Of a stretch of DNA of 64,000 nucleotides, positions 27,382 to 38,719 are shown in pieces (position 1 is the stretch's first letter; each line of letters begins with the position of its first letter). The notes under the pieces were generated by a model. It had not been told where the DNA came from. It ran no database searches and saw nothing but the letters and a program-made list of their open reading frames with translations. The stretch is from Thermoproteota archaeon (GTDB lineage: Archaea > Thermoproteota > Methanomethylicia > Methanomethylicales > Methanomethylicaceae). The translations under genes were made by a program, and so were the position numbers. The stretch spans positions 38,001-102,000 of the forward strand of contig VGLU01000001.1 in NCBI GenBank assembly GCA_016882195.1, given 5' to 3'.

Positions 27382-28170
27382 ATGACCCGCAAGTTGGACT
27401 TCAAGGCGTTTATCCTCGATCTGGACGGCAACATCTACAGGGGAGACAGACCGGTGGAGGGAGCCGCGGGCGTTATCGACGCCTTAAGGAAGAAAGGGAA
27501 GAAGGTCCTTTTCCTGACCAACAACTCCACCAGAACCCCGCAGGAGTACACGGAGAAGCTGAGGGGGATGGGAATAGAGACATCTCCGGAGGAGATCCTT
27601 ACGTCCTCCATCGCCACCGCCATCTACATGCGAAACTTGGAGCGCGGTGGGGTCTACGTGGTGGGCGAGGCGGCGCTGAAGTCGGCAATCGCCGGGGAGG
27701 GCTTCACCCTGCTGGACGAGGAAGGTGCGAGGAGGGCAAAGTACGTCGTCTGCGGGCTCGACTCTGGGGTCACCTACAGGAAGCTGGCAGCGGCGTGCCT
27801 CGCGATTCAGGGCGGCGCCAAGTTCATAGCCGCGAACACCGATCGGAACCTCCCAGTGGAGGGCGGCTACCTGCCGGGAGCAGGTGCCATAGTAGGCGCC
27901 ATAGTAACGGCAACTGGTGCGAAGCCAATCATAGTGGGGAAGCCGTCCAAGAACATAATGGGCATAGCCCTCAAGAGGCTGGGCGTGGGCAGGGGGGAGG
28001 TTGCAATGGTGGGGGACTGCTTGGACATAGACGTTGCGGCGGGGAGGAACGCGGGCGTCTATACCATCCTCGTGCTCACGGGGGTCACCTGCAGGTCGGA
28101 TCTGAGGGGGAGGAGCGTTTTGCCTGACCTTACCCTAGAGAGCGTCGCGGACCTGATAGAATTGATCTGA
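27382..28170 (+). CDS. HAD hydrolase, NagD/phosphoglycolate-phosphatase type
   Basis: A 262-residue HAD-IIA phosphatase. The motifs are DLDGNIYRG (catalytic Asps), TNNSTRTP, the Lys in VGKPSKNIM and the acidic VGDCLDIDVAAG. The usual DLDGT/V Thr is Asn here. A C2 cap domain lies between residues 80 and 190. The substrate (phosphoglycolate, sugar phosphate, nitrophenyl phosphate) cannot be told. It stands alone 80 nt before the purine genes. Confidence 0.88.
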   Translation: MTRKLDFKAFILDLDGNIYRGDRPVEGAAGVIDALRKKGKKVLFLTNNSTRTPQEYTEKLRGMGIETSPEEILTSSIATAIYMRNLERGGVYVVGEAALKSAIAGEGFTLLDEEGARRAKYVVCGLDSGVTYRKLAAACLAIQGGAKFIAANTDRNLPVEGGYLPGAGAIVGAIVTATGAKPIIVGKPSKNIMGIALKRLGVGRGEVAMVGDCLDIDVAAGRNAGVYTILVLTGVTCRSDLRGRSVLPDLTLESVADLIELI

Positions 28171-28229: not shown

Positions 28230-28257
28230 TGCGGAAATTTATCTACTGGTGTTTATC

Positions 28258-29187
28258 ATGGAGCTGGCCGAGGATCCCCTAACCAACAAGAAAGTAGAGG
28301 TCGTCAGGTACTCCAACCTGGGCGTCGGCGTTCTGAGGAGGGGGAAGATCAGGGACATCTACGACCTCGGTGAGGAGCTCCTGATATACCACACGGACAG
28401 GGTCTCAGCCTTCGACGTCGTTCTCCCGACACTGATCCCGAGGAAGGGCGAGTCCCTGCAGAAATTGTCGGTTTACTGGATGGAGAGGAGCAGGAGGGTC
28501 TTCCCGAACCATCTAATATCTGTCGAGGACAGCCGGACCATACGGGTCAGGAAGGCGAGGAGGGTCGACATCGAGTGGGTCGTTAGGAAGTACCTCTACG
28601 GTTCGCTCTGGAGGGCGTACAGCAAGGGGGAACGCAAGCTCTACGGGATAAAGTTCCCGGAGGGGCTGAGTATGGCGGAGGAACTTCCCGCCCCAGTAAT
28701 AACTCCCACAACAAAGGCGGACGTGGGCCACGACGAGGAGATCGCCAGAAAACTCGCTGTGGAGAGGGGCATAGTCGACAAGAGCACGTGGGACGAGCTG
28801 GAGGAAGCAACTTTAAAGCTGTACGAGTTCTACGAGGCGGAGGCGAGGCAGAGGGGTATAATCATACCCGATTTCAAGATCGAGTTCGGTTGGCACGGTA
28901 AAGAGTTGATACAGATAGATGAGCCCCCGACGCACGACTCTGCTAGGATGTGGGCGCGCAGGTACTACAGGCCAGGTGAGGTGCAGGAGAAGCACTGCCT
29001 TGACAAGGAATTCTTGAGGGAGTGTCTCAGGAGGCTCGATTTTGCTGGAGAGGGCGAGCCGCCGATATTACCCAGAGGGGTCGTCGGGGAGGTTGTCAAG
29101 CGTTGTGTGGGTGCATACAGGGTGCTCGCGGAGGGCGCCAGCGTTGAGGAGCTGAGGCTTGCCGGTGTAGACGATATTTTTAGATAA
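28258..29187 (+). CDS. purC: SAICAR synthetase
   Basis: Phosphoribosylaminoimidazole-succinocarboxamide synthase, the step joining CAIR and aspartate. The 309-residue protein has GKIRDIYDLG, the ATP/substrate segment HTDRVSAFDVV, RRVDIEWVVRKYLYGS and DEPPTHDSARMW, all conserved in the longer PurC type. ATG at 28258 or GTG at 28249. It has its own TATA box and is separated by 72 nt from purF, which also has one. Confidence 0.93.
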   Translation: MELAEDPLTNKKVEVVRYSNLGVGVLRRGKIRDIYDLGEELLIYHTDRVSAFDVVLPTLIPRKGESLQKLSVYWMERSRRVFPNHLISVEDSRTIRVRKARRVDIEWVVRKYLYGSLWRAYSKGERKLYGIKFPEGLSMAEELPAPVITPTTKADVGHDEEIARKLAVERGIVDKSTWDELEEATLKLYEFYEAEARQRGIIIPDFKIEFGWHGKELIQIDEPPTHDSARMWARRYYRPGEVQEKHCLDKEFLRECLRRLDFAGEGEPPILPRGVVGEVVKRCVGAYRVLAEGASVEELRLAGVDDIFR

Positions 29188-29214
29188 ACGTATAAAAAAA
29201 CCTTAAAAAGCCCC

Positions 29215-29225
29215 CTATAAATATA
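29215..29225 (+). promoter_or_regulatory. TATA box of the purF operon
   Basis: CTATAAATATA lies about 34-44 nt before the purF start. With a start site 25-30 nt further on the leader would be about 10 nt. It suggests that purF to purQ form a transcription unit of their own, with purC read separately or through. Confidence 0.45.
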
Positions 29226-29258
29226 CATGTTTATAGTAACGGTCTGGGGGGCACTCTT

Positions 29259-30734
29259 ATGGTGGGGGAGAGGTGTGGGGTATTCGGAGCTAAATGCTTC
29301 GACGGCAGCGATGCCTTCGTAAACCTCTACTGGGGACTAGTGGCGCAGAACCACAGAGGACACGAGTCCTACGGGTTCCTCACACACTCCGAGGGGCTGA
29401 GGAGGTACGTGGACCTCGGCCTCGTCCCGAGGATAGAGAGGCAGGAGTTCCTCCGCTGGAACATACTCCTGCCGGGCAATGTCGGGATAGCCCACGTCAG
29501 GTATGGGACCTCCGGACACAGGGACGTTTACGCTCATCTGAAGGATGCACAGCCCATAGTCGTCTCCCGCGGGAAGGAGAAGCTGGGCTTGGCGTACAAC
29601 GGCAACCTGGTGAACATCGGGTGGCTGAAGGAGTTTGTAGCCAAGAGAAACGGTAGGCTCAAGACGACCTCTGATACCGAGCTCCTCAGCAGGTACCTCC
29701 TCGACAATTTGGACAGGGGCATAATAGATAGCGTAAAGTTATGCATGGAGGATGTGGAGGGTGCATTCTCCGTGGTGGGACTGAGGTCGAGCGGGGAGTT
29801 CTTTGCGTTCAGGGATCCGCTCGGGATGAGGCCGCTCTGCCTCGGACAGAGCAGGGACGGCAGCATCAAGGCGGTCTCCTCTGAAACTGTCGGGCTCGAC
29901 ATTAACGATTTCCAGGTCTTGAGCGAGGTGGAGCCGGGCGAGGCTCTGATCTTCACGAAGGACGGGATGGAGAGGCAGAGGCTCGTCAGGAACGGCGGGA
30001 GGGCATTCTGCGGCTTCGAGTTCTCCTACTTCGCGAGACCTGACTCGATGATCAACGGCAAGTACGTTTACAGGGTGAGGGAGGAGTTCGGCAGGAACCT
30101 AGGGCGGAGGTACCAGGACGTAGTCAGGGACTCTGACCTCATTATATCCATACCGGAGACGGCCGACGACGCGGCGTACGGGCTGCATGAGGAGACTGGT
30201 CTGAGGTGGGAGAGGACCCTGAGGAGGCACAGGTTCGTGACCCACAGGGCGTTCATACTGGAGGTCGACGAGAGGACCTCGACCATCGACAGGAAGATCA
30301 ACGTTCCGGATGGTGGTCTGAAGGGGAAGAGGGCCATAGTCGTCGAGGACAGCATCGTCAGGGGCGACACGACGAGGACGACAGTAAAGAAGCTGAGGGA
30401 GGCTGGCGCGGAGAAGGTCTACCTCTTCGTCACCTTCCCCAGGATAACGCATCCCTGCTTCTACGGGATAGATATGGCGACCTTCACGGAGCTCATCGGG
30501 TTCTACTTCAACGAAGAGGGGATAGCCAAGGAGATAGGAGCCGACGCGGTCTGCTACCAGCCCCTCGAGGACTTCGTTAAGGCGACCGGCATGCGTAAGG
30601 AGGACCTCTGCATGGCTTGCACCACCGGGAGCTATCCGACGGAGCTCGCGCAGAGGATAGCGGACAAGGTCAGGTCCACCGTCGACAAATCGGACAGGAG
30701 CAGGGTCTACGAACGACCGAACTTGGAGGTGTGA
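29259..30734 (+). CDS. purF: Amidophosphoribosyltransferase, complete copy
   Basis: First enzyme of purine synthesis, making phosphoribosylamine from PRPP and glutamine. The 491-residue protein has an Ntn glutaminase domain with nucleophile Cys6 (ERCGVFGA, so a five-residue leader must be removed), HVRYGTSG, YNGNLVN and TTSDTE intact. The transferase domain has FARPDS, the PRPP loop VVEDSIVRGDTT and HPCFYGID. A cysteine pair late in the protein (CMAC) may bind a cluster as in Bacillus-type PurF. It is followed 2 nt later by a second homologue. Confidence 0.92.
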   Translation: MVGERCGVFGAKCFDGSDAFVNLYWGLVAQNHRGHESYGFLTHSEGLRRYVDLGLVPRIERQEFLRWNILLPGNVGIAHVRYGTSGHRDVYAHLKDAQPIVVSRGKEKLGLAYNGNLVNIGWLKEFVAKRNGRLKTTSDTELLSRYLLDNLDRGIIDSVKLCMEDVEGAFSVVGLRSSGEFFAFRDPLGMRPLCLGQSRDGSIKAVSSETVGLDINDFQVLSEVEPGEALIFTKDGMERQRLVRNGGRAFCGFEFSYFARPDSMINGKYVYRVREEFGRNLGRRYQDVVRDSDLIISIPETADDAAYGLHEETGLRWERTLRRHRFVTHRAFILEVDERTSTIDRKINVPDGGLKGKRAIVVEDSIVRGDTTRTTVKKLREAGAEKVYLFVTFPRITHPCFYGIDMATFTELIGFYFNEEGIAKEIGADAVCYQPLEDFVKATGMRKEDLCMACTTGSYPTELAQRIADKVRSTVDKSDRSRVYERPNLEV

Positions 30735-30736
30735 GG

Positions 30737-32047
30737 ATGGCAGGGATCTTGGGGATATACCTGTTCGACAACAGATGGAACGCTTACAACTTTGGGGTCT
30801 TCGGGCTCATGGCACTCCAGCACAGGGGTCAAGAAACGGCAGGCTTCGAACTCTTTGGTGACGATCGCAATAAGGTGGCGGGCAAGGGCCTGGTGGAGCA
30901 GGTATTGGCCTCGGCGAATACGAAGGGGCACATCTGCGTAGGAGCGGTCTCTCCGTATCCAGCAGAGGACGCCGAGATACAGCCGATCTCGCTGAACGGC
31001 AAGGTCTCCGCTGCTATAGACGGGAAAATACTGAAGGTGGACGGCTACCAGTGGAACGGCTCAATTTCATACGAGGAGAACCTTAGGAGGGCTTTTTCAG
31101 AGCAGGTAAAGGGCAGCAACGATCTTGACGGCCTGAAGGGCTTCTTCGGCAGGTGCAGGGGCGGCTTCTCCTACGTAGCGGTCAACGAGAATAGGGATAT
31201 GGTAGCAGGCAGGGGGGCTATGGGGGTGAAGCCCCTCGTCTTGGGCAAGATGGGGTTCGACGGAGGGATAGTCGCCTCGGAGAGCTGCGTCATGGACATC
31301 ATCGGGGAGAGGGTTCCCATCAGCCCAGCGGAGAACATCGAGCCAGGAGAGGTGAGGGTCTTCACGCCTCTCTCGGCACACTCGGAGCAGGGCGCCACAT
31401 CAAAGAGGAGGGCGTACTGTAGCTTCGAGTACGTTTACCTCGCTAGGCCGGACTCTTACATCAACGACGTTCCAGTGTACAGGGTCAGGAGGAGCATAGG
31501 GAAGAAGCTCGTGGAGGAGGGCTACGTGGACGCCGACGTTGTTATAGGCGTGCCCGAGACCGCGATACCGTTCGCCATGGCACACTCCAACGAGACCGGG
31601 ATACCAGTGGAGAAGGGCTTTGAGCTGACGGGGAGAAGGGTGAGGAGCGCCATGAAGCCGAACCAGTTCGAGAGGCTTAAGGGGGTCCAGCTGAAGCTCA
31701 ATGTGATAAGCGAGGCGGTTAAGGGTAAGAGGGTCGTCCTCATCGATGACAGCGTTGTGAGAGGGAATACGCTGGCAAACATAGTCTACCTGATGAAGGA
31801 GAAGGGGGCAAAGGAGATCCACGTCAGGATAGGCAGCCCACACATAGTGTCGCACTGCCCATTCGGGGTCGAGGTCCCGCCAGAGGACGAGCTGATCGGA
31901 AAGCACCTCCCTGAGGATAAGATAGCGGAGGTCGTGGGCGCGGACTCGTTCAAGTACCTCAGCATTGAAGGGCTAATCGAGGCCGTTGGCATGAGCAGGA
32001 GGGACCTCTGCCTTGGCTGTTTCAACGGCCATTACCCGGAGGTGTGA
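30737..32047 (+). CDS. PurF-like protein with defunct glutaminase domain
   Basis: A 436-residue homologue of PurF. The transferase half is well kept: YLARPDS, the PRPP loop VLIDDSVVRGNT, and CLGC near the end. The N-terminal half keeps the fold (MAGILGIYLFDN, LQHRGQETAG) but lacks the nucleophile: Ala2 stands where Cys should be. The HVRYxT, YNGxLxN and TSDTE stretches are also replaced (VGAVSPYP, IDGKILK). It cannot hydrolyse glutamine. It may use ammonia, receive it from the complete PurF next door, or be regulatory. It sits between purF and purD with a 2-nt and 4-nt gap. Confidence 0.88.
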   Translation: MAGILGIYLFDNRWNAYNFGVFGLMALQHRGQETAGFELFGDDRNKVAGKGLVEQVLASANTKGHICVGAVSPYPAEDAEIQPISLNGKVSAAIDGKILKVDGYQWNGSISYEENLRRAFSEQVKGSNDLDGLKGFFGRCRGGFSYVAVNENRDMVAGRGAMGVKPLVLGKMGFDGGIVASESCVMDIIGERVPISPAENIEPGEVRVFTPLSAHSEQGATSKRRAYCSFEYVYLARPDSYINDVPVYRVRRSIGKKLVEEGYVDADVVIGVPETAIPFAMAHSNETGIPVEKGFELTGRRVRSAMKPNQFERLKGVQLKLNVISEAVKGKRVVLIDDSVVRGNTLANIVYLMKEKGAKEIHVRIGSPHIVSHCPFGVEVPPEDELIGKHLPEDKIAEVVGADSFKYLSIEGLIEAVGMSRRDLCLGCFNGHYPEV

Positions 32048-32051
32048 CGAA

Positions 32052-33530
32052 ATGAAAGTTCTCCTAGTCGGGGGAGCCGGCAGGGAGCACGCGATAGCGG
32101 CCGCCTTCGCGAGGAGCGGGCACGAGCCGAGGCTCTACTGCCTATCGGACCTGACGAACCCAGGCATAAAGGGGATCGTGAAGAAAAGCGGCGGGGAGTA
32201 CTACCTCGGAAACATAAACGACCCTGAGGGCGTGATAAAGGCCGCCAAGAAGTCCGGGGCAGATTTCGTCTTCGTCGGACCCGAGGAGCCGAACTTCCAC
32301 GGAGTGCCGGACAGGCTCGAGGATGGCGGAATACCCTGCATCGGGGCGAACAGGGCGGTCTCGGAGCTGGAGATGTCCAAGGCAAGCATGAGGGACCTCC
32401 AGTGGAAGTACAAGATTCCGGGGAGGCTCTGGTACAAGAAGTTCAAGACCTTCGAGGAGGCTGTTCCATACATCGAGGAGTATGCGGACAGCGTCGCGCT
32501 CAAGCCGGCGAGGCAGGCGGGGGGGAAGGGAGTAAAAGTGATAGAGGACTTCCAGGTCTACCTGCAGGAGGACAAGAGGAAGGTCAAGAAGGAGCACGCC
32601 GAGTCAATTGTCAGGGAGTACATGAAGGGCTACGACGATATCGACTACAAGCTGCTCATAGAGGAGAGGGTCTGGGGTCCGGAGTACACCGTCCACTGCT
32701 TCACGGATGGGAGTACGGTCGTGCCCATGCCTGCGGTTCAGGACAACAAGCACGCCTTCGACGGCGACCTGGGGCTGGAGACCGGTGGGATGGGCTCCAT
32801 ATCCTGTGGCATGAACCTCAGGTGGGGTGTGGATGACGGGAGGGCAATCCTCACGGACGAGGAGTACCTAAAGTCCGTGGAGATAGTCAGGATGATGATA
32901 GACGCGATACAGACGGAGACGGGCGAGAAGTACCACGGTGTGGTCGCTGGGCAGATGATGCTCACCTCGGTCTGGGGACCCACGGTCATAGAGATGTACT
33001 CGAGGCTGGGGGACCCGGAGGCGGGCAACGTGCTCTCGGTGCTGAAGAGTGACATAGTGGACATATGCGAGGCCATCATCGGCGAGAGGCTCAATACAAT
33101 CAAGGCGGAGTTCGAGGACAAGGCTGTCGTTGTTAAGGCTGTCTGCCCCGAGGGGTACCCCAACAGAAGGGACATTGCGAGCGGGCATCCGGTTAAGATC
33201 AAGGGGAACGGGGACGGAATCCTCTGGGCGTCGGCGGACATCAAGGATGAAAGGGTGTTCAGCGGTGGCTCAAGGGTCGTGGAGTGCCTCGGCGTTGGGG
33301 AGAGCGTACCGGAGGCGAGCAGGAGGGCTGAAAAACTTACGGAGAAGGTCTCGCTCGAGGACGGGTGGAAGCTCTTCCACAGAAGGGACATTGGGTCGGA
33401 GAAGTCCTTGGAGAGGAGGATAGCGCTGGCGAACATGGCGCGTGAGATCTACCAATACAGGGAGAGGAGGGGGCTCCTCGGAAAGAGGATGATATGGATA
33501 CCGGGTAAAGGGTTGGTGGAGGTCGGTTGA
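32052..33530 (+). CDS. purD: GAR synthetase
   Basis: Phosphoribosylamine-glycine ligase, ATP-grasp, 492 residues (bacterial PurD has about 430). GGAGREHAIA starts the first domain; VGPEEPNFHG and LKPARQAGGKGV follow. The Mg site that usually reads E-x-N-x-R-x-GDPE is EMYSRLGDPE here, so the Asn is Tyr. An insert lies around residues 175-200. ATG at 32052 follows the previous stop by 4 nt; the longer frame is not needed. Confidence 0.9.
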   Translation: MKVLLVGGAGREHAIAAAFARSGHEPRLYCLSDLTNPGIKGIVKKSGGEYYLGNINDPEGVIKAAKKSGADFVFVGPEEPNFHGVPDRLEDGGIPCIGANRAVSELEMSKASMRDLQWKYKIPGRLWYKKFKTFEEAVPYIEEYADSVALKPARQAGGKGVKVIEDFQVYLQEDKRKVKKEHAESIVREYMKGYDDIDYKLLIEERVWGPEYTVHCFTDGSTVVPMPAVQDNKHAFDGDLGLETGGMGSISCGMNLRWGVDDGRAILTDEEYLKSVEIVRMMIDAIQTETGEKYHGVVAGQMMLTSVWGPTVIEMYSRLGDPEAGNVLSVLKSDIVDICEAIIGERLNTIKAEFEDKAVVVKAVCPEGYPNRRDIASGHPVKIKGNGDGILWASADIKDERVFSGGSRVVECLGVGESVPEASRRAEKLTEKVSLEDGWKLFHRRDIGSEKSLERRIALANMAREIYQYRERRGLLGKRMIWIPGKGLVEVG

Positions 33531-33531
33531 T

Positions 33532-34908
33532 ATGGTCTATAAGATGACGGAGGAAGAGAGAAGGGATCTGTTGGATAAGATAGGATCCTACAAGAAGGAG
33601 TTCGAGGGGAGGCTAAGTCCACTCGACCCGCTCGACCCTGAGAGGCCGGCGGTCTTCATCTCCGTCGGTGGAGGGGAGCTGGGCGACCTGGCGGTCACGG
33701 CGGCGAAGGGGCAGTACGGCGGGGCGGGCGGCGGGGTGAGGACGGTCGCCTTTGATAGGTATAACGGGTTCCCTGCTCAGGACGCGGCCGACGCGTCCGA
33801 GGTCTTCGACATGAAGAACGGAGACCTTTTGGAGAGGTACATAAAGAAGTACGTGCCCGATCCCTCCAAGCCACATGCCATATACATGGAGGTTGAGATG
33901 ATCGACACCCACAGGGCATACAAGCTCGGGATGGACGAGGGCTACAAGGTGATGTCCACACCCTACGGCCCCTTGGTCTGCATGGACAGGCACGCCACCA
34001 AGCTGATGTTCGACAGGCTCAGGCTGGAGAGGGCAGACTGGGCATACGCCAACAACGACAAAGAGGTGCACAGGATTGCCAAGGACTTCGGTCTGCCCGT
34101 GATAGTGAAGCCCGTGATGACCTCCAGCGGCCACGGCACCTCCATAGTGAAGACCGGAAAGGAGCTTGAGGAGGCATACGCCCACGCCGTGGAGCACGCC
34201 AGGGGGGTGGGCGACGAGGTCGTCGTAGAGAGGTTCCTGCCGGGGCTGAAAACCATGGGCACCGAGATCACGCAGATAGTGGTGAGGCACTTCAATGAGC
34301 ACGGGAAGATCGTGAACTCCTTCGTTCCGCCCATAGAGCACAGGAGGCCCGGCGCGACCTACCACGAGAGCTGGTTGCCCTCCGCCATATCTGAGGGGGC
34401 GGCGGAGAGGTGCAAGGCGGACGCCGGGCGCATTGCCGACTTCATGGGAGGGATAGGGGTCTATGCGGTGGAGCAGTTCGTCCTTGGCGACGAGGTCTAC
34501 AACAACGAGGTGGCGAACAGGCCCCACGACACGGGCATGGTCACGAGGTGGATGCTGAACATGGATGAGGGGGCATTGCAACTCACGTCCACCCTGGGTC
34601 TGCAGATTAACCCGTTCCATCTGGAGATCGCAAGGCAGGATGTCTACGGGGTTGCCCACGTGGTCCTTGCGCCGTTGGAGATAAAGAAGGAGGTGAAGGT
34701 TCTGGGCTGGAACGCGAGCAAGCTGAACCACTTCCAGACCAAGGGCGTGAGGGGCGACTTCTGGTACTTCGGCAAGCCGACGGCGTACGCAGGAAGGAGG
34801 ATGGGTATGGCGGCGGCATTCCAGCCCGACCTTGAGAAGGCAAGGAGAAACGCGGAGATCATCGCCCACCTCGCCGAGGGGTGCATAGAGTACGGGGGGA
34901 GGGTCTGA
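33532..34908 (+). CDS. purT: Formate-dependent GAR transformylase
   Basis: Uses formate and ATP to formylate GAR, replacing folate-dependent PurN. The 458-residue ATP-grasp protein has GGGELGDLA, VKPVMTSSGHG, EITQIVV and NRPHDTGMVT, the last two being PurT signatures. It carries an extra N-terminal stretch of about 40 residues and a longer C-terminal part than E. coli PurT (392 residues). It starts 1 nt after purD and ends overlapping purE (TGATG). Confidence 0.9.
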   Translation: MVYKMTEEERRDLLDKIGSYKKEFEGRLSPLDPLDPERPAVFISVGGGELGDLAVTAAKGQYGGAGGGVRTVAFDRYNGFPAQDAADASEVFDMKNGDLLERYIKKYVPDPSKPHAIYMEVEMIDTHRAYKLGMDEGYKVMSTPYGPLVCMDRHATKLMFDRLRLERADWAYANNDKEVHRIAKDFGLPVIVKPVMTSSGHGTSIVKTGKELEEAYAHAVEHARGVGDEVVVERFLPGLKTMGTEITQIVVRHFNEHGKIVNSFVPPIEHRRPGATYHESWLPSAISEGAAERCKADAGRIADFMGGIGVYAVEQFVLGDEVYNNEVANRPHDTGMVTRWMLNMDEGALQLTSTLGLQINPFHLEIARQDVYGVAHVVLAPLEIKKEVKVLGWNASKLNHFQTKGVRGDFWYFGKPTAYAGRRMGMAAAFQPDLEKARRNAEIIAHLAEGCIEYGGRV

Positions 34909-35342
34909 TGCCAAAGGTGGCTGTGGTCATAGGGAGCAGGTCGGACGCCAAGGCGGGCAATGAGGTCGTGGGTGTGCTCAAGGAGTACGGCGTGGAGTGC
35001 GACTACAGGGTCATCTCAGCGCACAGGAGTCCGGATGAGCTGGACTCGTTCGTGAAGACTACCGACGCAGAGGTCTTCATAGCCGTTGCAGGTCTCTCGG
35101 CGGCGTTACCAGGCGTTATAGCCTCGAAGACGGTCAGACCGGTCATAGGAGTCCCCATGAACGTGAAGCTTGAGGGCTTGGACGCCTTTCTGTCCATGGC
35201 ACAGATGCCGCCAGGGGTTCCTGTTGCCACCGTTGGCGTTGACAACTCGAAGAACGCCGCCCTTCTCGCCGTTGAGATATTGGCGATGAAGTACCCCGAG
35301 CTGAGGGGGAGGCTTGAGGAGGGCAGGAGGAGACGGAGATGA
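34908..35342 (+). CDS. purE: AIR carboxylase/NCAIR mutase catalytic subunit
   Basis: A 144-residue PurE. It has GSRSDAKAG, ISAHRSPDEL and AGLSAALPGV, the substrate loops of the family. The last motif has AALPG where class I enzymes have AHLPG. No purK was seen, so direct carboxylation of AIR with CO2 is likely. The ATG at 34908 is in TGATG with the purT stop. Confidence 0.9.
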   Translation: MPKVAVVIGSRSDAKAGNEVVGVLKEYGVECDYRVISAHRSPDELDSFVKTTDAEVFIAVAGLSAALPGVIASKTVRPVIGVPMNVKLEGLDAFLSMAQMPPGVPVATVGVDNSKNAALLAVEILAMKYPELRGRLEEGRRRRR

Positions 35343-35611
35343 AGGTAAAGGTCGAGGTGAGGCTGAAGCCAGGACACTTCGATCCAGAGGGCGACATCAC
35401 CGCAAAGTCCCTCAGGGACTTGGGCTTCCGCGTGAAAGGCGTGGAGGTCAGCAAGGTCTACACCTTGGATCTGGAGGCGAGGGACGCGGAGGATGGCGTG
35501 AGGCTCACAAAGGACATGTGCAGGAAGCTTCTGGCCAACCCGACCAAGGACAACTTTTCGGTAGAGGTGCTCCCGGGTGAAGAGCGGACTGTTGAGAAGG
35601 GCAAGCGATAA
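35339..35611 (+). CDS. purS: FGAM synthetase PurS subunit
   Basis: A 90-residue PurS, the small bridging subunit of the three-part FGAM synthetase. VEVRLKPGHFDPEG and AKSLRDLGF match the family. It overlaps purE by 4 nt (ATGA) and purL by 35 nt, and purQ follows purL, so all three parts of the enzyme are encoded together. Confidence 0.92.
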   Translation: MKVKVEVRLKPGHFDPEGDITAKSLRDLGFRVKGVEVSKVYTLDLEARDAEDGVRLTKDMCRKLLANPTKDNFSVEVLPGEERTVEKGKR

Positions 35612-37928
35612 GCTCAGCCTGTTCACCGTGAACCTCTCTGCTACCGATGATAAGGATCTGGTCGAGATCAGCAAGTCCATGGGCCTCAGCCTCAGCTTGG
35701 ACGAGATGAGGTATCTTAAAGGTTACTTCAAGACACCTCCAACCGACGTGGAGTTGCAGAGCCTCGGTCAGACATGGTCGGAGCACTGCATCCACAAGAC
35801 CTTCAAGGGCGATATCAGGACGGAGAATAGGGTCGTCAGGGGACTGCTGAAGAACTACATAGCCAGGGCGACGAGGGATCTGAAGAAGCCATGGTGCATC
35901 TCCGTCTTCGAGGACAACGCTGGCATCGTGGACTTTGACGACGGATACGTGGTGGCTGCCAAGGTGGAGACTCACAACCACCCCTCGGCTGTGGAGCCCT
36001 TCGGCGGTGCCGCAACCGGCGTGGGGGGCGTCATAAGAGACATCCTCGGAGTATGGGGCGAGCCCGTTGCCAACACGGATGTGCTCTGCTTCGGACCCCT
36101 CGATATTCGCCATGAGGAGCTACCGCTAGGCGTGAGGCACCCCAAGTACATCTACAAGGGTGTGGTGGCGGGGGTGGGCGCCTACGGCAACAACATGGGG
36201 ATCCCCACCGTGTCAGGAGGGATACTCTTCGATAAAGGTTACACGGGCAACGTGATAGTCTACTGCGGCTGCATCGGGGTGCTTCCCAAGGATCTATACA
36301 TCAAAAACACTAGGGAGGGCGATTACGCGGTGATGGCTGGCGGAAAGACGGGGAGGGACGGGATCCACGGGGTGACCTTCGCCTCAGCAGATCTCCCGGA
36401 GGGCTCTGAGGAGCTGAGGTCGGCCGTGCAGATACCTAACCCGGTGGTGGAGGAGAGGCTGAAAAGGGCCATCCTGAGGATAAGGGACGGGAGGCTCGCC
36501 TCAGGCGTGACCGACCTGGGCGGGGGCGGGATATCCTGCGCCGCCGGCGAGATGGCCCACAGGTCGGGCTTGGGTCTGGACGTGAACCTTGACGTGGTCC
36601 ACCTCAAGGAGGCGAACCTGGCACCGTGGGAGATCTGGGTCTCCGAGTCGCAGGAGAGGATGCTAGTCTCGGTGCCCGAGGGTAACGTCGAGAAGGTCCT
36701 TGAGATATTCAAGGAGGAGGACATAGAGGCGTGCGTCCTCGGGAGGTTCAACAGGAGCGGAAGGATCAAGGTCACGTTGCACGGCGAGGTGGTCTGCAAT
36801 CTGGACCTCGACTTTCTGTACAGCCCGCCCAAGGTCACTAGGAAGGCTGCGCAGGTGATAATCCCTTCAGCTAGGTACAGGCTGGATGAGCCGAGGGATC
36901 TGGCAGAGGAGCTGCTCACCCTCTTAGCAGACCCCAACGTTAGGAGCCGGGAGGACGTCATAAGGACCTATGACCATGAGGTGAGGGGCTGCACGGCGAT
37001 AAAGCCGCTGCAGGGCGAGGAGGGCGGGCCCAACGACGCGGCAGTGATAAAGCCCCTGAAGGACTCGTGGATGGGGCTCGTGATCTCCTGCGGCATAAAT
37101 CCCTTCTACCCCGACCCCTACTGGATGGCGGCGGCCTCCATAGAGGAGGCGGTGAGGAACAACGCCTCGGTGGGCGGGAGGAGGGTGGCGATCCTGGACA
37201 ACTTCGTCTGGGGGAATCCCGAGCGCGAGGAGAGGATGGGCTCACTGTTAAGGGCGGTGGAGGCCTGCTACGACCTCTCAACAGCGCTGGACGTGCCCTT
37301 CATATCGGGCAAGGACAGCCTCTACAACGAGTCCCCGCTGGGACCGGTCAGGCCGACGCTCCTGATCACCGGCGTGGGTATAATCCCGGACCTTAGGAGG
37401 GCAATCACTCTGGACCTCAAGAGGGAGGGCAACCCGATTTACCTCATCGGGCTTACTAAGGACGAAACCGGCGGATCTGCGTATTTCAGGTCGAAGGGAA
37501 TCGCGGGAGGTGCTTGTCCCAAAATTGACGCAAAGGTCTCCAAGAGGACGATTGATACGCTCATCAATGCCATGGACGGGGGCATGGTCATGGCGTGCCA
37601 CGATCTCTCCGAGGGAGGGCTCGGGGTCGCGGCGGCGGAGATGGTTATAGCCTCGGATGGACTCGGTCTCGCCATCGACCTGAGGCGGGCACCTTCAGCG
37701 GTAGGGAGGAGCGACATTATTCTCTTCTCAGAGTCTGCCTCGAGGTTCTTGGTGGAGGTCGAGAGAGGTCACGCCAAGGGCTTTGAGAATCTGTTCAAGG
37801 GGCTACCCCACAGAGAGGTCGGAGAAGTGGAGGGTGGGAGGGGGGCAGGGCTCAGACTGCATGACCTGAAGGGCAGGGAGTTGGTGCTGGGTTCCTCTGA
37901 GATGAGGAGGGCGTGGAGGGGCTATTGA
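35577..37928 (+). CDS. purL: FGAM synthetase PurL subunit
   Basis: The ATP-dependent catalytic subunit, 783 residues, of the short archaeal/Gram-positive type. QTWSEHCIHKTF, KVETHNHPSA and FGGAATGVGG in the first half and SGKDSLYNE in the second are conserved. The GTG at 35577 has GAGGTG upstream and overlaps purS by 35 nt; a GTG at 35628 is closer to the usual family start but has no ribosome site, so the first 17 residues are uncertain. Confidence 0.92.
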   Translation: MKSGLLRRASDKLSLFTVNLSATDDKDLVEISKSMGLSLSLDEMRYLKGYFKTPPTDVELQSLGQTWSEHCIHKTFKGDIRTENRVVRGLLKNYIARATRDLKKPWCISVFEDNAGIVDFDDGYVVAAKVETHNHPSAVEPFGGAATGVGGVIRDILGVWGEPVANTDVLCFGPLDIRHEELPLGVRHPKYIYKGVVAGVGAYGNNMGIPTVSGGILFDKGYTGNVIVYCGCIGVLPKDLYIKNTREGDYAVMAGGKTGRDGIHGVTFASADLPEGSEELRSAVQIPNPVVEERLKRAILRIRDGRLASGVTDLGGGGISCAAGEMAHRSGLGLDVNLDVVHLKEANLAPWEIWVSESQERMLVSVPEGNVEKVLEIFKEEDIEACVLGRFNRSGRIKVTLHGEVVCNLDLDFLYSPPKVTRKAAQVIIPSARYRLDEPRDLAEELLTLLADPNVRSREDVIRTYDHEVRGCTAIKPLQGEEGGPNDAAVIKPLKDSWMGLVISCGINPFYPDPYWMAAASIEEAVRNNASVGGRRVAILDNFVWGNPEREERMGSLLRAVEACYDLSTALDVPFISGKDSLYNESPLGPVRPTLLITGVGIIPDLRRAITLDLKREGNPIYLIGLTKDETGGSAYFRSKGIAGGACPKIDAKVSKRTIDTLINAMDGGMVMACHDLSEGGLGVAAAEMVIASDGLGLAIDLRRAPSAVGRSDIILFSESASRFLVEVERGHAKGFENLFKGLPHREVGEVEGGRGAGLRLHDLKGRELVLGSSEMRRAWRGY

Positions 37929-38719
37929 TGAGGCTGGAGAAGGCGAGGGCGTGCGTCCTGAGGGTCGGCGGCACGAACTGCGACCTGGAGGTGAAGGTCG
38001 CCCTCGAGGAGCTAGGACTGCAGACAGAGATACTGCACATGAACCAGCTGAAGAAGAGAAGGTTGTCGGATTACCACATGCTCGTCTTCCCTGGCGGCTT
38101 CTCGTATGGCGACTACGTCAGGGCAGGCGCGATATGGGGGAGGCAGGTCATTACAAAGTTCAGGCGCGACCTTGAGGCCTTCGTGAACGAGGAAAAGCTC
38201 GTGATGGGCATCTGCAATGGGTTCCAGGTGCTGGTGGAGGCTGGGCTGCTGCCGGGCAATGGGGTATCTGGCGTTCCCACAGCCACCCTAGCAAACAACT
38301 CCTCCGCCAAGTACGAGTGCAGGTGGATCCGCCTCAGGGTGGATGGGAAGAGGACGCCCTTCACCAAGATCATGAAGGTCGGCGAGGTGGTCAGGATACC
38401 CATCGGTCACGGCGAGGGGAGGTTCCTGCTCCCGTCCGAGGGCGCCCTCAAGGAACTGATAAAGGAGGGGCAGGTGGTGTTCAGGTACGCCCTTCCGGAC
38501 GGCAAACCAGCGGAGGGCGCATACCCGCACAACCCCAACGGCGCGGTCTACGACATCGCGGGGATCTGCAACAAGAAAGGAAACGTGATGGGGATGATGC
38601 CCCACCCTGAGAGGGCCTTCTTTGGCTGGCAGACACCGGTTTGGGGGGCGGAGCCGCCGGAGCACGGAGACGGCAGGAAGATCTTCGAGGGAGCCGTCGA
38701 GTACCTGAAGAGGTACTGA
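37928..38719 (+). CDS. purQ: FGAM synthetase PurQ (glutaminase) subunit
   Basis: A 263-residue class I glutaminase that feeds ammonia to PurL. The nucleophile Cys is in GICNGFQ; His and Glu of the triad are in PHPERAF; GHGEGRF is also seen. The ATG is in the TGATG overlap with the purL stop. It ends the purine operon; 94 nt later a VapBC module starts. Confidence 0.92.
   Translation: MRLEKARACVLRVGGTNCDLEVKVALEELGLQTEILHMNQLKKRRLSDYHMLVFPGGFSYGDYVRAGAIWGRQVITKFRRDLEAFVNEEKLVMGICNGFQVLVEAGLLPGNGVSGVPTATLANNSSAKYECRWIRLRVDGKRTPFTKIMKVGEVVRIPIGHGEGRFLLPSEGALKELIKEGQVVFRYALPDGKPAEGAYPHNPNGAVYDIAGICNKKGNVMGMMPHPERAFFGWQTPVWGAEPPEHGDGRKIFEGAVEYLKRY

Follow-up and report, generated by a model that had tools for sequence, protein, structure and literature searches.

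The purine gene cluster analyzed here contains, next to an intact purF, a second PurF-like gene (purF') whose presence, position and phylogeny follow a clade of long PurD proteins and not PurF. The best explanation of these sequence patterns is that PurF' would serve as an accessory phosphoribosyl-binding or phosphoribosyl-transferring subunit of the archaeal step leading from phosphoribosylamine (PRA) to GAR, rather than as a spare copy or a regulator of PurF only. Paralogues of this kind have already been described; new here is the tie to PurD instead of PurF.

The window, i.e. the whole stretch of 64,000 nucleotides that was analyzed, carries at 28249-38719 on the + strand a purine cluster with the gene order purC, purF, purF', purD, purT-like, purE, purS, purL, purQ. 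Its features were as follows:

28249..29187, + strand: purC (SAICAR synthetase), first pur gene of the cluster; NCBIfam NF009251, E = 4.9e-69
29259..30734, + strand: purF, intact, 491 aa; Arg, Asn and Asp of the glutaminase site, channel residues, PRPP loop and four Fe-S-type Cys present; model pLDDT 91.0
30737..32047, + strand: purF' (glutaminase-dead PurF paralogue), ATG to stop, 436 aa
30740..30742, + strand: Ala2 codon of purF', at the position of the nucleophile Cys1
31418..31420, + strand: Cys228 of PurF', first of four Fe-S-type cysteines (the others at codons 374, 425 and 428)
31643..31645, + strand: Arg303 of PurF' (= E. coli R332), in the flexible loop TGRRVRSA; 60/60
31733..31771, + strand: PRPP loop of PurF', residues 333-345; D337, D338, S339, G343 and T345 invariant
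32052..33530, + strand: purD, 492 aa, from the clade that goes with PurF', extended by ~40 aa at the C terminus; TIGR00877, 330 bits
33532..34908, + strand: purT-like formate-dependent GAR transformylase; NF006766, E = 1.3e-78, below cut-off
34908..35342, + strand: purE; TIGR01162, above cut-off
35577..37928, + strand: purL; homologues at the same place in related loci
37931..38719, + strand: purQ (ORF opens at 37913); TIGR01737, above cut-off

The initial annotation had described purF' as squeezed between purF and purD with gaps of a few bases, and indeed 2 nt separate the purF stop from the purF' start and 4 nt its end from the purD ATG (32052). Among relatives, purF' was almost always adjacent to purF (gaps of -13 to +26 nt), with the loci closest to the window belonging to Ca. 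Methanomethylicus and relatives (75-81% identity). PurF and PurF' of the window share 30% identity, and no further full PurF was found in the window genome, the remaining GATase matches being separate loci. The window purD product passed the TIGR00877 cut-off of 288 bits, and the consensus of its clade contains the GGMG and RxGDPE motifs. The PurT-like protein (458 aa) reached 265 of 339 and 255 of 502 bits and thereby fell far under both PurT cut-offs.

Functional residues were compared by alignment column (E. coli PurF numbering) between 60 dereplicated PurF' and 77 archaeal PurF sequences. PurF' starts with MAGILG, so that Ala2 stands where PurF has its nucleophile Cys, as had been claimed for this gene, and the upstream PurF carries a 5-residue leader followed by Cys6 (MVGER-CGVFG). 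Cys1, Arg73, Asn101 and Asp127 were present in 77/77 archaeal PurF, while PurF' retained them in 0/60, 0/60, 2/60 and 9/60 sequences, respectively, and 50 of the 60 had none of the four left. Position 1 of PurF' was occupied by Ala, Thr, Ser, Pro or other residues, and Asn101 was replaced by Asp in 46/60, which argues that the old glutaminase pocket is not merely drifting. The broader statement that every other glutaminase motif is altered held for Arg73, Asn101 and Asp127, which are mostly gone, but not for the structural HRG (R26, G27), which was kept in 60/60. With 272 bits to TIGR01134 (E = 9e-81, much too low for a chance match) the window PurF' stayed below the cut-off of 350, as did its intact neighbor PurF with 321.

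In the transferase domain, the PRPP-site residues Y258, R332, K349, D366, D367, S368, G372 and T374 were each found in 60/60 PurF', in agreement with the earlier reading that PRPP loop and transferase domain are conserved. The ammonia-channel face of the flexible loop was altered: F334 was present in 77/77 PurF and 0/60 PurF', and positions 334 and 335, which are Phe and Ile in every PurF, were Ala/Met and Leu/Ile/Met in PurF'. We take F334 and I335 to be channel-lining residues of E. coli PurF. The loop of PurF' has a motif of its own (TGRxxRSA...QLKLN) that is conserved more than the PurF loop. Four Fe-S-type cysteines were kept in archaeal PurF as well as in PurF' (59/60, 60/60, 60/60 and 60/60 in the latter), three of them being missing in E. 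coli PurF; they are presumably Fe-S ligands as in the B. subtilis class of PurF, which shares all four with PurF'. The AlphaFold2 model of PurF' (pLDDT 90.6, pTM 0.88) was similar in quality to the predicted model of the window PurF (pLDDT 91.0, pTM 0.91), and its best structural matches in the PDB were all PurF (TM 0.82-0.86), consistent with the proposal of a retained fold with dead chemistry. A PDB sequence search found no PurF' structure. A different amidotransferase such as GlmS or AsnB was rejected based on these structural matches and on the separate loci of the other GATases. Known PurFs (EC 2.4.2.14; B. subtilis 1gph/1ao0, E. coli 1ecb/1ecf) share the two-domain fold and the PRPP loop with PurF', which differs from them in having no nucleophile, glutamine/oxyanion residues or channel residues. 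In the PRPP loop, the two Asp and one Ser are important for activity, and Y258 touches the pyrophosphate of PRPP (PMC7056826).

PurF' is an ancient paralogue and not the product of recent decay. The 60 dereplicated PurF' from across the phylum formed one clade (SH-aLRT 100) against archaeal and bacterial PurF, with the Cys nucleophile absent from all members; the sole sequence outside this clade without Cys (L041) has a gap at this column and no substitution. Among close PurF' pairs the median dN/dS was 0.067 for the dead glutaminase domain and 0.037 for the transferase domain, compared with 0.068 and 0.058 for the same domains of intact PurF, and the dead domain of PurF' is thus under strong purifying selection. 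Homologues with an intact Cys in close relatives and frameshifted copies in sister genomes had been named as the outcomes that would speak for recent decay; neither was seen among the homologues, and two apparent losses in genomes with a long PurD or a window-type PurF (G038, G030) were contig breaks inside purF'. Even though the glutaminase site is gone, a freshly decayed, functionless duplicate or pseudogene is scarcely conceivable given the single old Cys-less clade, the low dN/dS of both domains and the lack of broken copies.

By description, the window gene is the PurF' of Brown et al. (2011), here from a member of the Methanomethylicota. These authors (PMC3261824) report that each Crenarchaeon has, besides PurF, another PurF-like protein that lacks the N-terminal Cys and that they named PurF', that its gene is found close to purF and to further purine genes, and that it may have ammonia-dependent activity. 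The features given there were found here as well: the N-terminal Cys is gone (replaced by Ala and others), PurF' clusters apart from PurF in the tree, and there is one of each per genome, with purF' near purF and further purine genes. Our clade takes in lineages of the phylum of the Crenarchaeota, including Methanomethylicota and many others beyond the crenarchaeal PurF' of that account; the sequences of Brown et al. are outside our tree, so that the match is one of description. The association with a PurD clade, the intact PRPP site, the Fe-S cysteines and the in-place replacement detailed below are not reported in the available part of that paper. It also mentions Mlab_0150 of Methanocorpusculum labreanum, a PurF-like protein with its nucleophile replaced (Ser), which, however, is a recent duplicate of its own PurF, whereas PurF' forms an old clade of its own. 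A literature search, whose coverage leaves out most subscription journals, turned up no later work on PurF'.

To describe the distribution of PurF', we used 398 genomes, all from this one phylum and many of them metagenome-assembled. PurF' was present in about 110 of them (genome numbers tallied from match listings), and all of these with a readable PurD had one scoring at least 296 bits, or part of such a PurD. Conversely, the 111 genomes with a PurD of at least 296 bits were the PurF' genomes (G397 being fragmentary), while complete PurDs of PurF'-less genomes reached at most 131 bits, except for one ordinary PurD at 227. PurF' was present and no PurD was found in G346, a genome that is 73% complete, and in G093 a partial PurD lies at the beginning of a contig. 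The PurDs that occur together with PurF' formed one clade (SH-aLRT 99) separate from other PurD types; they are longer, being extended at the C terminus by a conserved stretch, and their KPxRQxGGKGV loop is altered. On the PurF tree, used in place of a species tree, PurF' presence switches 12 times, and the long PurD switched with it in 9/9 independent contrasts on well-supported branches (p = 0.004); 8/8 contrasts agreed after PurF'-less genomes less than 90% complete had been dropped. Distance matrices gave a correlation of 0.85 between PurF' and PurD (partial 0.67 given PurF) and of 0.72 between PurF and PurF' (partial 0.22 given PurD). PurC and PurL were rejected as linked traits since loci with and without PurF' overlap in their scores for these two proteins; only PurD separates such loci.

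Two further groups of genomes stood out in this survey. PurF'-less genomes of the window's class (L163-L165) encode a very divergent PurD-like protein of 474 aa with ~60-75 bits to either reference, which may not be an ordinary PurD. Full matches to PurF, PurF' and PurD were absent from G062 and G076, two genomes of one genus in the family of the window genome that are at least 90% complete, which points to a loss of the de novo purine pathway.

Gene order followed the same pattern. Where purF was distant or on the opposite strand, purF' was still the immediate neighbor of purD, in the same orientation (7/7 loci); the reverse case occurred once (L124). The locus L105 is organized as purQ-purL-purF-purF'-purD with purE-purC further on, and L188 from the same genus as purQ-purL-purF followed by an E. 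coli-type purD, again with purE-purC further on and without PurF'. The PurF of L188 is sister to that of L105; a single bacterial-type purD replaces purF'-purD in place, with purF inherited normally. In one family of the window's class (L132, L189), purC-purF-purS-purL-purQ were kept, while purF', purD and the purT-like gene were gone from the cluster. The retention of PurF where purF' and purD were swapped or lost (L188, L132 and L189) indicates that PurF is independent of PurF', and the long PurD seems to need PurF'. Neighboring genes may be lost or transferred jointly just because of their position, without direct contact of their products. Against mere positional co-inheritance argue the genomes, few in number, that keep these genes despite looser linkage: G095 and G137 have purF, purF' and purD at three separate places, and L120 and L124 keep purF' as well as a nonadjacent purD.

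The initial annotation had offered a hetero-complex with the intact PurF, an ammonia-dependent enzyme or a regulatory subunit as functions. The reading we favor, to which we give somewhat less than an even chance, is that the ancient PurF', without glutamine hydrolysis and with its phosphoribosyl site kept, acts in the PRA-to-GAR step as the partner of one particular kind of archaeal PurD. PurF' would bind the long PurD, and probably PurF, hold a phosphoribosyl ligand in its conserved transferase site, and either hand the short-lived PRA to the long PurD or make PRA at the PurD entrance; the physical complex, the bound ligand and the hand-over are the parts of this model that we infer. Put more tentatively still, GAR synthesis in these archaea may take two proteins, the long PurD and PurF' as its PRA- or PRPP-handling subunit, with one bacterial-type PurD able to replace the pair. 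The conservation of Y258 on the pyrophosphate side suggests PRPP or a nucleotide as ligand rather than PRA alone and counts against the hand-over. A close rival, though unlikely in our estimate, is an ammonia-dependent PRPP aminotransferase that would need neither glutaminase nor channel and would form PRA, perhaps on PurD, from PRPP and free NH3. The full PRPP site alongside lost glutaminase and channel residues fits such an enzyme, and replacing Cys1 of E. coli PurF leaves its use of ammonia intact, according to work cited in PMC3261824. However, no near-complete genome had PurF' without a Cys-containing PurF, single-gene cases ending at contig edges, and such an enzyme would be expected to track the PurD type only if it acts on PurD.

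A function confined to PurF is less favored, since PurF' follows the PurD type and stays beside purD. We consider it rather improbable that PurF' would form a mixed oligomer with PurF and serve in it as a regulatory or structural subunit, its pocket sensing PRPP or purine nucleotides, even though the two genes are almost always neighbors and the A and C nucleotide sites of known PurF overlap the PRPP site (PMC7056826): genomes with and without PurF' are interspersed on the PurF tree, even sister PurFs differing in this respect (L105 versus L171), and the partial correlation with PurF is low. The loop motif of PurF', more conserved than that of PurF, would also suit a side pathway in which phosphoribose is transferred to some acceptor that is not ammonia, which is very unlikely in view of the tight purD linkage and the in-place replacement by purD alone. 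How PRA gets from PurF to PurD is a long-standing question, and PRA binding to PurD is structurally unresolved (PMC8880213). Hand-over of this unstable intermediate has been considered for Aquifex aeolicus PurF and PurD, where the available part of PMC3261824 reports no PurF', calls the coupling in vitro too weak and raises the possibility that another protein is needed. If PurF' mediates this hand-over in a large share of archaea, the step could be studied as a stable thermophile complex, a paralogue unexplained since 2011 would have a testable function, and a dead enzyme half would have been put to use in the reaction that follows its own in the pathway.

Neither archaeal PurO (PF07826) nor bifunctional PurH (PF01808) was found in the window genome, leaving IMP cyclohydrolase missing, as also noted for Crenarchaeota by Brown et al. 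(PMC3261824). Directly 5' of purC lies a HAD-IIA (NagD/phosphoglycolate phosphatase-like) gene (27382-28170), which occupies the same place in several relatives.
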